The translations under genes and the position numbers were made by a program. The notes beneath the pieces were generated by a model. The model was not told the origin of the DNA. It did no database searches and saw only the letters and a list, made by a program, of their open reading frames with translations. Below are positions 28,812 to 34,421 of a stretch of 64,000 bases of DNA, piece by piece. The stretch lies in NCBI GenBank assembly GCA_949751835.1, contig CATKHK010000066.1:124001-188000 (forward strand), written 5' to 3'. How positions within the stretch are numbered: position 1 is the first letter of the stretch; each line of letters starts with the position of its first letter. The stretch is from Blepharisma japonicum (taxonomy: Eukaryota; Ciliophora; Heterotrichea; Heterotrichida; Blepharismidae).

Positions 28812-29042
28812 ATGAAGCTATCTATAAGCACTTTGACTGGAAAGACGCTAGTTATTGATGCAGAGCCTAATGATTCAGGTTTAAATATTAAAGAAAAGAT
28901 TCAAGACATAGAAGGCATTCCTCCATGCATGCAAGCTTTGGTATATGTTAACAGACAGCTTAGTAACGATCTCACATTAGCAGATTATGGAATATTTACA
29001 GAAGCGTCATTAAGGCTCATAATAAATTTGAGGGGATGCTAA
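28812..29042 (+). CDS. Ubiquitin-like monomer, type A copy 1
   Basis: 76 residues, the exact length of ubiquitin. Starts M-K-L-S-I-S-T-L-T-G-K-T-L-V-I-D-A-E-P and ends I-I-N-L-R-G-C. The beta-grasp core is kept, but the segment matching ubiquitin 37-48 reads P-P-C-M-Q-A-L-V-Y-V-N-R-Q, so the Lys48 position is Arg and the D-Q-Q motif is altered. The final residue is Cys where ubiquitin has Gly76. It is more diverged from copy 3 (32616) than expected if both were constrained, so it may be relaxing. Confidence 0.82.
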   Translation: MKLSISTLTGKTLVIDAEPNDSGLNIKEKIQDIEGIPPCMQALVYVNRQLSNDLTLADYGIFTEASLRLIINLRGC

Positions 29043-29141
29043 TAACTAATTAAATTCTTATTTTAACCAGAGAAATATTTATAATATATCTATAACTTTA
29101 GAATTCTGTTCTATTCTGATTAAAAGGTCTTTTAATAAATA

Positions 29142-29437
29142 ATGCAAATATTTATCAAAACCCCAAAGAAAAGACCATAGCTCTTAATGTGAAGTCTTCA
29201 GGCACTATTGATAACATAAAAGCTGAAATTTAAAGCAAGGAAGGAGTTCCTCCAGACCAGCAAAGATTGATTTTTGCAGGAAAACAATTAGAAGATGGTA
29301 AAACTATGCAGATTATAACATCTAGAAAGAATTAGCACTTCCTTTAGGTTTACGTCTTAGAGGAGGCATTTTAATAGCAATTATTATAAAAATTTAAATG
29401 GTGCATACCATGAAATAAACGTAAACTTTGAAGCGCT
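29142..29437 (+). pseudogene. Broken ubiquitin-Ubl fusion (type B copy 1)
   Basis: Starts ATGCAAATATTTATC like the intact type B genes, but several small deletions shift the frame within the first 15 codons. Stops follow, and the second Ubl half fades out near 29437. Recognisable fragments include the segment matching [16 protein letters not shown] in another frame. Clearly a decayed copy of the gene type seen intact at 33017. Confidence 0.85.
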
Positions 29438-29762
29438 ATAATGCACTATAAGATTTTACTGAAATTTTATAATACAATTTAGGCGAACAAGAGCGAAATA
29501 GGTTAAAATAATAAATCTAACTATATATAATGAATGCCGGCTTGCCTTTGCTACTCTACTATATAATGAGAATAATAACAATGGAGTATTTATATTTATG
29601 TTGAATAGGTTTAGGACATTAAGATTACAAAAACTCTCCTTCAATCTAGCCAAAAATTTCCCACATCCCAAGGGATAATTAGCTTTAAATTGGTTCTTAT
29701 TTAAAAAGATTTGGATTAAATAGAAATTTTGCTTATTTAATTAAAAATGTCTTTTAATAATT

Positions 29763-29994
29763 ATGCAAATATTTGTCAAAATGCTCACAGGAAAGACCAT
29801 AACTCTTGATGTGGAGCCTTCAGACACCATTGATTTTTTAAAGGCTAAAATCCAAGAAAAAGAAGAAATTCGTCCAGATGCAAAGGTTAATTTTCGCAGG
29901 AAAACAATTAGAAGATTGAAAAACTCTTGCAAGATATAATATTGGAAAAGAAGCAACATTTCATTTAATTTTACGGATTAGAGGAGGGATTTAA
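29763..29994 (+). pseudogene. Frameshifted divergent ubiquitin (type B' copy 1)
   Basis: Nearly identical to the intact copy at 32082, including the preceding 80 bp. Two bases are missing in the stretch coding for R-P-D-E-Q-R (around 29875-29882), so the frame is lost in mid-domain. It still carries the T-G-A that replaces the Gly47 codon, so that change predates the duplication. Confidence 0.85.
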
Positions 29995-30235
29995 TGGCAA
30001 AGATAATAAGATCCTCTCTTTTGGATTTTAAAATGCTCTGCTCCAGATTTTCCTTTACCCTAGTAAACTCAAGTGTTCAATTTAGATATAAAAATGGCAA
30101 AAATAGTATTAAAATATTATCGTTTCTTACAAAACTATAGAATTTGTTTAATAATTTTTTATTTATAAATTAAATGGGATTTAAAATGCTAATATAAGAT
30201 TTCTGATCTGACATTCTTATATAATTTAATAATAA

Positions 30236-30434
30236 ATGAAACTAGTTATTGATGCAGAACCTAGTGACTCTCCTCTAAATATTAAAGAAAAGATTCAGGC
30301 TAGAAGGCATTTCTCCAGATCAGCAGATTCTGATTTATGCTGGCCAGCAGCTTAGTAACGATTTTGCATTAGCAGATTATGGAATATATACTGAAGCGTC
30401 ATTAAGCCTCAAAATAAATTTGAGGGGCTGCTAA
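30236..30434 (+). pseudogene. Deleted Ubl monomer (type A copy 2)
   Basis: Compared with the intact copy at 32616, it lacks 30 nt just after the third codon (in-frame loss of ten codons), and a second 2-nt deletion near 30299 breaks the frame. The promoter-like block and the 3' flank match the intact copy closely. Confidence 0.85.
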
Positions 30435-30614
30435 TAACTAATTAAATTCTTAACGATTGAAGAAATATAATTTTATCTGTCAAATAATTTAAGAATTCTG
30501 ATAATTAACGAGTTAATTACATTTCTAAATACTTATTTAAAACATTTATACATCTAGAATTATAGAATTATAGATTTCTCTTCTATTCTGATTAAAAAAT
30601 GTCTTTTAATAATT

Positions 30615-32315: not shown

Positions 32316-32615
32316 TGGCAAAGATAATAAGATTATTAATACATAATTTATTCAATAAATATTTTTCTACCTGATATAATAAGATCCTCTCTTTTGGAGT
32401 TTTAAAATAATCTACTCAAGATTTACCTTTACCGTAGTAAGCTCAAGTGCTCAATTTAGATATAAAAATGGCAAAAATAGTATTAAAATATCATGGTTTC
32501 TTACAAAACTATAGGATTTATTGAATAATTTTTTTAATTATAAATTAAGTGGGATTTAATATTGCTAATATAAGATTTCTGATCTTACCTGACATTTTTA
32601 TATAATTTAATAATT

Positions 32616-32846
32616 ATGAAACTATCAGTAAGCACTTTAACTGGAAAGACGTTAGTTATTGATGCAGAACCTAGTGACTCTCCTCTAAATATTAAAGAAA
32701 AGATTCAGGACTTAGAAGGCATTCCTCCAGATCAGCAGATTCTGATTTATGCTGGCCGACAGCTTAGTAACGATTTTGTATTAGCAGATTATGGAATATA
32801 TACTGAAGCGTCATTAAGCCTCATAATAAATTTGAGGGGATGCTAA
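32616..32846 (+). CDS. Ubiquitin-like monomer, type A copy 3
   Basis: 76 residues, intact. Core I-P-P-D-Q-Q-I-L-I-Y-A-G-R-Q-L-S-N-D keeps the ubiquitin loop, but Lys48 is Arg and Lys63 is lost (T-E-A-S-L). C-terminus I-I-N-L-R-G-C: Gly75 retained, Gly76 replaced by Cys. This is the best-preserved type A copy and the likely functional one. Whether it is conjugated is unknown. Confidence 0.85.
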   Translation: MKLSVSTLTGKTLVIDAEPSDSPLNIKEKIQDLEGIPPDQQILIYAGRQLSNDFVLADYGIYTEASLSLIINLRGC

Positions 32847-33016
32847 TAACTAATTAAATTCTTAACGATTGAAGAAATATAGTTTATCTGTCAAATAATT
32901 TAAGACTTCTGATAATTAGCTAGTTAATTGCATTTCTAAATACTTATTTAAAAAATTTATATATCTATACTTTAGAATTCTGTTCTATTCTGATTAAAAA
33001 ATGTCTTTTAATAATT

Positions 33017-33481
33017 ATGCAAATATTTGTCAAAACCCTCACAGGAAAGACCATAACTCTTGATGTGGAGTCTTCAGACACTATTGATAACGTAAAAGCT
33101 AAAATTCAAGACAAGGAAGGTATTCCTCCAGACCAGCAAAGGCTGATCTTTGCAGGAAAACAATTAGAAGACGGAAGAACTTTGGCAGATTATAACATCC
33201 AGAAAGAATCAACGCTGCATTTAGTTCTACGTCTTAGAGGAGGGATTTTAATGGCAATTATTGTAAGAGATTTAAATGGTGTAGACCATGAAATAAATAT
33301 AGACTCTGAAGACACCATTGAGCATCTCAAAGAAATTTACCAGGAATTAGCTAATGTTCCTGTAGATCAGCAAAGAATTATTTTTTCAGGAAAGCAGCTT
33401 GAAGATGGAAGGACAATTAATGACTATGGAGTCAGTGATGGGGCAATTATGCATATGGTTCTTCGCTTAAAAGGCTGCTAA
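33017..33481 (+). CDS. Ubiquitin-Ubl head-to-tail fusion, type B copy 4
   Basis: 154 residues. Residues 1-76 are a near-perfect ubiquitin ending R-L-R-G-G. I count only conservative changes from animal ubiquitin, at positions 16, 19, 24 and 57, and all seven lysines are present. Residues 77-154 are a second beta-grasp domain ([13 protein letters not shown]) that keeps [10 protein letters not shown] but lacks the Lys63 site and ends M-V-L-R-L-K-G-C. Cleavage after Gly76 by a deubiquitinase would release both. This is the most intact gene of the array. Confidence 0.9.
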
Positions 33482-33621
33482 ATAAAAATAATTAAAAAAT
33501 GAAGCATAATTCGGATATTCAATATAATAATCAGCTAGTTTAAGCTCCAGTAAAAATAAATTAATGAAAAATATAAGAATCAATCTATTTTATACTGATA
33601 AAAATATAAACAATCATAATT

Positions 33622-34086
33622 ATGCAGATATTTGTTAAAACGCTAACAGGAAAAACCATAACTTTTGATGTGAAGTCTTCAGATACAGTTGATTACTTAA
33701 AGGCTAGGATTCAAGCCAAGGAAGGAATTCCTCTAGATCAGCAAAGACTGATTTTTGCAGGAAAAGAATTAATAGAGGATTATCAGCAGCTATCAGACTA
33801 TAATATTGCAAAAGAGTCAACTCTGCATTTAGTTTTACGGCTTAGAGGAGGGGTTATTATGACAATTGTTGTGAAAAGTTTAGCTGGGACAAGCACTGAA
33901 CTGAACATAGATTCTGAAGATACTGTTGAGCATCTCAAGCAGAATTACCAAGAACAAGTCGGTGTCCCTGCAGATCAGCAAAGAATTATTTTTGCAGGAA
34001 CACAACTTGAAGATGAAAAGACCCTTGCTGAGTATGGAGTGAGTCCTGGAGCAATAATGCATGCAATTACTCGTTTAAGATGCTAA
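33622..34086 (+). CDS. Divergent ubiquitin-Ubl fusion, type C copy 2
   Basis: 154 residues. The first domain starts [16 protein letters not shown] and ends R-L-R-G-G, but has an unusual loop, [14 protein letters not shown], one residue longer than ubiquitin around position 50. The second domain starts [14 protein letters not shown] and ends I-T-R-L-R-C. Gly75 is missing too, so the tail is R-C rather than R-G-G. The D-Q-Q-R-I-I-F-A-G motif is retained in both halves. Confidence 0.85.
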
Positions 34087-34154
34087 AATCTAATTATTTA
34101 AAAAATGGGATAATCATACTAACTTATAGTGACTAAGTTAGAGACTAAAATGTT

Positions 34155-34421
34155 TCAAAAGAGTCATCTGTTGCAATTAGTTCCACGACGTAAAGGAGCA
34201 TTTTAATGGCAATTGTTGCAAGAAATTTAACTGGGGGAAGTATTAAGCTGAGCATAAACTCTGAAGATACTGTTGGATGTCTCAAGCAGTATTATCAAGA
34301 GCAAGTTGGTATTCCTGCAGGTCAGAAAAGAATTATTTTTGCAAGAAATCAGCTTGAAGATGAAAAGACCCTTGCTTAGTATAGAGCAATAATTCATGCT
34401 ATTACTCGATTAAGATGCTAA
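34155..34421 (+). pseudogene. Truncated Ubl (type C copy 3)
   Basis: The 5' part holds only the last dozen codons of a ubiquitin half, already garbled (about 34155-34205). The Ubl half from ATG 34206 is recognisable (S-I-N-S-E-D-T-V-like segment, [14 protein letters not shown]) but has a TAG at about 34377-34379 and a deletion just after, before the usual I-T-R-L-R-C ending. Confidence 0.8.

Follow-up and report, generated by a model that had tools for sequence, protein, structure and literature searches.

We describe a tandem array of ubiquitin (Ub) and ubiquitin-like (Ubl) genes at positions 28812-34421 of a 64,000-nucleotide stretch of Blepharisma japonicum DNA, hereafter the window (positions 124001-188000 of contig C66, in a 45.2-Mb assembly of 224 contigs, whose numbers are prefixed with C throughout). 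The array is a tandem cluster that grows and decays by duplication and loss and in which single and fused genes are mixed. Our preferred interpretation, to which we assign a probability of roughly 0.6, is that this duplication and loss maintains Ub precursors alongside Ub mimics that could not be conjugated and whose terminal thiol would be under selection. The eleven copies belong to four types, namely A (a single Ubl), D (a single Ub), and B and E (Ub-Ubl fusions), and all were found where a first-pass annotation of the same DNA had placed them, head to tail within 5.6 kb. Their order is A1, B1, D1 in the first block; A2, B2, E2, D2 in the second; and A3, B3, E3, F in the third. UGA was read as Trp; TGA occurs 128 times and TGG 234 times in frames that run for 250 codons or more and for which TAA and TAG alone counted as stops. 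Ub folds were assigned from Pfam and PDB sequence matches. In window coordinates, the copies are as follows.

A1, 28812..29042, plus strand: single Ubl of 76 amino acids, intact, ending INLRGC (Gly76 replaced by Cys).
B1, 29143..29455, plus strand: broken Ub-Ubl fusion, aligned to B3, with indels, an in-frame stop, and most of the Ubl half gone.
D1, 29763..29994, plus strand: single Ub variant, frame shifted by a 2-nt deletion.
A2, 30236..30434, plus strand: broken A copy with an N-terminal deletion and a 2-nt deletion; TGC TAA end kept.
B2, 30615..31094, plus strand: Ub-Ubl fusion, open over 159 codons under UGA = Trp, decayed.
E2, 31244..31706, plus strand: Ub-Ubl fusion whose frame is broken by loss of 2 nt late in the Ub unit; the Ubl still closes with RLRC-TAA.
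D2, 32082..32315, plus strand: intact single Ub variant precursor of 77 codons, ending RMRGG-I.
A3, 32616..32846, plus strand: intact single Ubl, with changes including K48R, K63T, H68S, and G76C, ending INLRGC.
B3, 33017..33481, plus strand: canonical Ub (ending LRLRGG) fused to a Ubl ending LRLKGC.
E3, 33622..34086, plus strand: variant Ub (ending LRLRGG) fused to a Ubl ending TRLRC.
F, 34194..34421, plus strand: Ub-Ubl remnant with most of the Ub gone and an in-frame stop in the Ubl; TGC TAA end kept.

Five copies (A1, D2, A3, B3, and E3) are intact, five (B1, D1, A2, E2, and F) are broken, and B2 is open yet decayed, its first Ub tail reading LPLGGR and a 3' frameshift leading to the protein end NIW. 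Matches to the Pfam family PF00240 reached 66.4 bits for A3, 94.0 for D2, 186.1 for B3, and 175.8 for E3 against a cut-off of 25.4, and D2, in which UGA is read as Trp at codon 53, matched Pfam ubiquitin with an E value of 4.8e-27. Block 1 retains only A1 intact. The first-pass annotation had described the earlier blocks as broken, which holds for B1, D1, A2, and E2 but not for the intact D2 or the open B2. Repeat analysis of the array yielded nine direct-repeat families that connect the copies. Blocks 2 and 3 start about 2.38 kb apart (at 30236 and 32616), close to the 2.3-kb blocks initially proposed, but block 1 measures only 1.42 kb (28812 to 30236). Blocks 2 and 3 align through both coding and non-coding DNA; the latter is 88-98% identical (in 60-column steps), which indicates duplication rather than chance, and the Ubl half of B2 is 80-90% identical to block 3 in the same steps. 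Same-type copies are distinct at about 1-16% of aligned positions, which speaks against a single copy having been assembled twice. Small indels account for several breaks, as would be expected if the broken copies were sequencing or assembly errors; however, we consider this explanation highly improbable, given that D1, A2, and E2 each lose their frame through a 2-nt deletion that is not in a homopolymer, that A2 and F carry larger deletions and B1 and F in-frame stops, and that B2 drifts although it is open. Tiny introns were rejected as the cause of the broken frames, because none of six tested copies regained a full-length Ub frame when a single GT-AG segment 13-24 nt long was excised; no such excision opens B1, and one of 18 nt lengthens the A2 read to 63 codons, but in a non-Ub frame. 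For Blepharisma stoltei, the available text of the genome report gives UGA read as Trp, CCCTAACA telomere repeats, introns of 15-16 bp, and a genome of 41 Mbp (PMC9942806). Regarding telomere-type ends in our assembly, one of six contig ends carries seven TGTTAGGG repeats, one starts with a short CCCTAACA stretch, and four have neither.

Our comparison of substitution patterns, for which the ratio of non-synonymous to synonymous rates (dN/dS) was calculated by NG86 throughout, revealed that B3 encodes canonical ubiquitin under constraint. The B3 Ub is identical in protein to five polyubiquitin units on C65, while 35-44 of about 52 synonymous sites have changed, so that synonymous sites are near or beyond saturation; the three non-synonymous steps counted must stem from paths between split codons. 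This constraint led us to reject the reading that the whole array is genomic debris, with all ubiquitin supplied by polyubiquitin elsewhere, as very improbable, even though five copies are broken, B2 is drifting, and the genome has several polyubiquitin genes (on C4, C34, and C65) as well as two further Ub genes that share the same ribosomal-type tail. No window gene holds more than one Ub, and the array thus contains no polyubiquitin gene in the sense of several near-identical units in one open frame. On C34:398500-409500, three tandem polyubiquitin genes (of 3, 5, and 5 units) adjoin a diverged two-unit Ub gene.

Ratios among the remaining intact copies were also low, at 0.31 for A1-A3 (p=0.002), 0.45 for the B3 and E3 Ubls (p=0.017), and 0.26 for the B3 Ub and D2. 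B2 is drifting despite its open frame (dN/dS 1.21 against B3, p=0.72). The expectation that broken copies would lie near 1 held for B2, albeit in an open frame, but not in pairs with broken copies, which gave 0.3-0.5 where a ratio could be formed: 0.31 for E2-E3 (p=0.053), 0.34 for A2-A3 (p=0.13), 0.50 for B1-B3 (p=0.054), and 0.50 for F against the E3 Ubl (p=0.06). These values arise partly because part of the history of the broken copies was under constraint, and few differing sites lie behind the A2 and E2 ratios. D1 and D2 differ by no synonymous and two non-synonymous changes, that is, at 2 of 229 sites within the gene compared with 55 of 514 outside it (all steps of the block alignment), and the near-identical tract (window 29709-30014, counterpart 32028-32340) reaches about 50 bases upstream. 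Such likeness, synonymous sites included, despite the D1 frameshift is a sign of recent homogenization. Relative to B3, divergence in the Ubl half of B2 (window 30843-31094) is roughly threefold that of the neighboring non-coding DNA (35 of 234 sites versus 15 of 313 flanking sites, p=7e-5), whereas the Ub half differs at 17 of 228 sites (p=0.20 against the flanks); the excess in the Ubl half may reflect either faster evolution or conversion of the flanks.

All intact Ubls of the array stop with a Cys at residue 75 or 76, namely INLRGC in A1 and A3, LRLKGC in B3, and TRLRC in E3, where the Cys is residue 75. A TGC TAA end is present in seven of the nine Ubl copies, including the broken A2, E2, and F, and is lacking in B1 and B2; the word TGCTAA is not in excess in the window (58 observed versus 65 expected). 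The C-terminal Gly-Gly is required for E1-dependent conjugation. The Ub halves of B3 and E3 end in it and D2 contains it, but all four intact Ubl moieties (A1, A3, and those of B3 and E3) lack it, and from pathway knowledge the array Ubls, which lack Gly76, should not be activated by E1. The first-pass annotation had proposed a lineage-specific set of modifiers; the duplication-and-loss cluster, its mixture of single and fused genes, and the constraint on intact copies are upheld, whereas the missing Gly-Gly leaves the word modifiers unsupported. The B3 Ubl keeps Leu8, Ile44, Lys48, His68, and Val70, as well as Arg72, Leu73, and Gly75. Retention of the Ile44 patch and of the latter three residues, together with the Gly-Gly ends of the B3 and E3 Ub units and D2, would suit Ubls that are processed and conjugated as covalent modifiers in the manner of ubiquitin, but the Cys-ended Ubls, the stop of the E3 Ubl at residue 75, and the loss of the LRLRG tail from all six Ubls of a sister array on C7 (described below) make that reading very doubtful.

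A genome survey placed these tails in a wider setting. We scored 150 of 197 candidate Ub matches and recovered 89 open reading frames (ORFs) from a subset of these 150; repeated polyubiquitin units, the second Ub gene with a ribosomal-type tail (C49), and the C65 polyubiquitin stand outside the 89, as do most broken window copies and matches on C81, C97, C65:36183, C35:349765, and C87:128525. A C-terminal Ub-like domain, defined as one within six residues of the stop, was present in 42 of the 89, all closed by a stop; Cys is the exact end of 16 of them, Gly-Gly occurs within the final six residues of 8, and the remaining 18 show neither. Among the 47 ORFs without such a domain (in 3 of which the profile found no domain), 15 run off the fetched piece, and none of the 32 completed ones ends in Cys. 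A general genomic bias toward terminal Cys was rejected, since only 1 of 109 other long ORFs ends in Cys (112 had been taken as non-Ub, of which four were Cys-ended, three being Ubl proteins missed by the filter). The contrast of 16/42 with 1/109 gave a Fisher p of 1.5e-9, a figure that overstates the evidence since the genes are related. The 16 comprise four copies of this array, four of the six in the C7 array, C57:268106, C12:308584, C11:16165, three proteins with a U-box followed by two Ubl domains on C58, C91, and C134, and two-Ubl proteins on C87 and C79.

All three U-box proteins with two Ubl domains (C134, C91, and C58) end in Gly-Cys; the U-box was recognized by Pfam for C58 and C91 and by genome match for C58, C91, and C134. 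For C87 and C79, no U-box was seen in the ORF or among the U-box matches listed. We rejected the idea that a terminal Cys marks U-box proteins in general, as three U-box ORFs without a recognized C-terminal Ubl end otherwise. A separate U-box gene lies directly upstream of a Ub-Ubl fusion gene pair on C12 (C12:307240-308420). In all 16 genes the stop directly follows the Cys codon, and a lone last Cys is not a CaaX motif, which argues against lipid anchoring as in UBL3. A short Ub-like ORF at C7:194510-194695, ending RNSCCTLL, has the sole CaaX-like end among the 42 tails, as in UBL3/MUB.

A second tandem array, at C7:168596-178331, contains six open, diverged Ub-Ubl genes that are sister to the B/E type of the window. 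Their frames span 152-154 codons, and the linker (I/V/A)LM is common to the C7 genes and B3. The inner Gly-Gly has been lost in five of the six copies (LKPQDG or LKPRDG), with C7:178110 retaining LELRGG, and the C-terminal ends, SKIC, TRIC, KLSC, RQRC, TKIY, and ELTY, lack Gly-Gly; the last Cys is thus present in four of six copies although the preceding residues vary. A neutral simulation without indels gave a chance of 0.2-8% per lineage that 153 codons stay free of stops (at 0.1-0.3 substitutions per site), so the C7 frames are probably maintained, if loosely.

A tree of 49 domains with tails removed, which included 15 of the 16 Cys-ended domains (C79 was dropped by a filter), was weakly resolved, with 13 of 46 inner branches starred. 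One clade (support 100/99) unites the B3 and E3 Ubls with all six from C7; outside it fall the A pair, the U-box group (whose own unity received only 28/0), C12, C57, and C11. The Cys label changes eight times on the tree. A single clade of the 15 Cys-ended rows was rejected at p 1.5e-44, a trivial outcome since two C7 copies ending in Tyr fall within the group; with these two added, the p value was 0.019, for groups named after the tree had been seen. We regard several origins of the terminal Cys as likely. The alternative is a neutral relic, in which an ancestral LRLRGG-C tail lost one Gly and the Cys was simply inherited. Polyubiquitin-type precursors in this genome do carry one residue past Gly-Gly (L, Q, R, or I), the excess of TGC codons suggests common descent, and a SUMO-like ORF on C75 ends TGGCY, beyond the six-residue cut of our count. 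Conversely, no Gly-Gly-Cys end occurs among the eight Gly-Gly-containing tails counted, the C7 Cys persists while its neighbors changed, and Cys-ended rows are scattered in the tree, although the single clade is disfavored only at the p value and with the caveat just given. On balance, we regard the neutral relic as unlikely, yet worth keeping in view.

The array arose as blocks with four Ub-type genes were duplicated repeatedly, in a ciliate that reads UGA as Trp and has telomeres of the Blepharisma type. In our proposal, deubiquitinases would cut B3 and E3 after LRLRGG, releasing ubiquitin (B3) or a Ub variant (E3) together with a free Ubl; D2 would yield a Ub variant once its one extra residue is trimmed, and the A type would be made directly as a free Ubl. 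Since the missing Gly76 should bar them from conjugation, the Ubls are most likely non-covalent ubiquitin mimics, the B type keeping Leu8, Ile44, His68, and Val70. The terminal Cys would be kept by selection, and its thiol probably takes part in the action of the Ubls. The C7 array may have gone further, as the five copies without the inner Gly-Gly would stay uncut as two-Ubl proteins.

Several observations weigh against this reading. Two C7 copies end in Tyr, and pairwise dN/dS among the C7 genes is only 0.45-0.82, with p<0.05 in 7 of 15 pairs. Among the 42 C-terminal Ub-like domains, 18 have neither Cys nor Gly-Gly, and the 16 Cys-ended ones do not count as independent cases, since six fall in the B/E/C7 clade. 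TGC makes up 14 of the 16 terminal Cys codons as opposed to 253 of 488 background ones (p=0.005), an excess that hints at shared descent or a constraint at the DNA level. Moreover, gene conversion of the kind seen in D1/D2 may disturb the dN/dS values.

A bolder possibility, which we hold to be a long shot taken as a whole, is that naturally occurring ubiquitins with a thiol tail (Ubls whose Gly76 has become Cys) serve this lineage as redox-reversible, thioester-like regulators of the ubiquitin cascade, either free, fused to ubiquitin, or ending U-box ligases, with the thiol pairing with, or accepting ubiquitin from, the catalytic Cys of E1, E2, HECT/RBR, or a deubiquitinase.

Other Ub-related and neighboring genes were noted. 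A short homeodomain-type ORF lies immediately downstream of the array (window 34594-35088, minus strand; Pfam E 1.6e-7). C116 and C33 encode an identical Ubl protein sequence, both ending VLQLR without Gly-Gly. On C100:110000-119000, three tandem genes of about 290-300 codons have a Ub-like region at the N-terminus, a Ub-like domain in the middle, and a similar part at the C-terminus. By sequence, SUMO-like ORFs are found at C75:195300-197500 (the TGGCY end mentioned above) and C19:292400-294600, which ends TGGI.

Ubiquitin is among the most conserved proteins, and the canonical, diverged, broken, and non-conjugatable copies lying side by side here offer an ordered series on the escape from constraint. 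Duplication and loss, as well as Ub-Ubl fusions, are known kinds of organization; the Cys tail is the most interesting part, and the recurrent change of Gly76 to Cys, which U-box proteins also show at their ends, is an oddity that is specific and inexpensive to test. We found no report of Ub arrays in Blepharisma or of a natural Cys76 tail in the literature searched, from which subscription papers were mostly absent. The BUBL polyubiquitin-like genes of ciliates carry an intein-like (Hint/BIL) domain beside their Ubls, whereas A3, D2, B3, and E3 have no Pfam match to an intein-like family (E<=0.001). ISG15 and FAT10 hold two tandem Ubl domains in one small protein whose mature form ends in Gly-Gly; the C7 copies share this layout but not the Gly-Gly end.

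The mixture of genes had initially been judged unlike the usual Ub genes; single and fused genes are indeed mixed, but fusions are not unique to the array. B3 and E3 consist of an N-terminal Ub ending LRLRGG followed directly by a Ubl, and genes with Ub (or a variant) and then a Ubl also occur on C57, C12, C5, and C7, with the reversed order on C4. Plants have ubiquitin-NEDD8 (RUB1/RUB2) fusion genes, in which, according to the available part of the description, one ubiquitin likewise stands head to tail on the N-terminal side of a Ubl and cleavage is needed to release both; NEDD8, however, matures to a C-terminal Gly and is conjugated (PMC3968751), while the Ubls of B3 (LRLKGC) and E3 (TRLRC) end in Cys. 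Whether ubiquitin genes follow birth-and-death or concerted evolution is an established debate, and the accessible account of polyubiquitin genes describes duplicated units, homogenization along with divergence, and a protein held while synonymous sites change (PMC10457151), all features shared by our array, which differs in comprising separate genes of four types with pseudogenes instead of identical in-frame repeats. Divergent Ub fusions in algae are similarly lineage-specific, with truncated units and fusions that include a ring-finger domain with two Ub units, but the available sections of that work describe no Cys tail and no such tandem gene array (PMC6332867). UBL3 and related membrane-anchored Ub-fold proteins resemble the array Ubls in having a functional Cys near the C-terminus, although that of UBL3, in the text available, is prenylated through a CaaX motif four residues from the end (PMC9857354) and the array Cys is the last residue. 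A chemical parallel is engineered ubiquitin G76C, which, in the portions of the reports available, forms a stable disulfide with the catalytic Cys of Ube2S (PMC4734694) and with the C-lobe of E6AP (PMC6463701), in both cases after chemical thiol activation. By analogy, natural Cys-tailed Ubls could form disulfides with catalytic Cys residues of such E2 or HECT enzymes inside the cell. The substitution and its position are the same, but G76C is a laboratory reagent built on canonical ubiquitin, whereas the change here is natural, recurrent, and located in Ubls; if the thiol does work, the change would be a natural counterpart of the substitution engineered to trap E2 and E3 intermediates.

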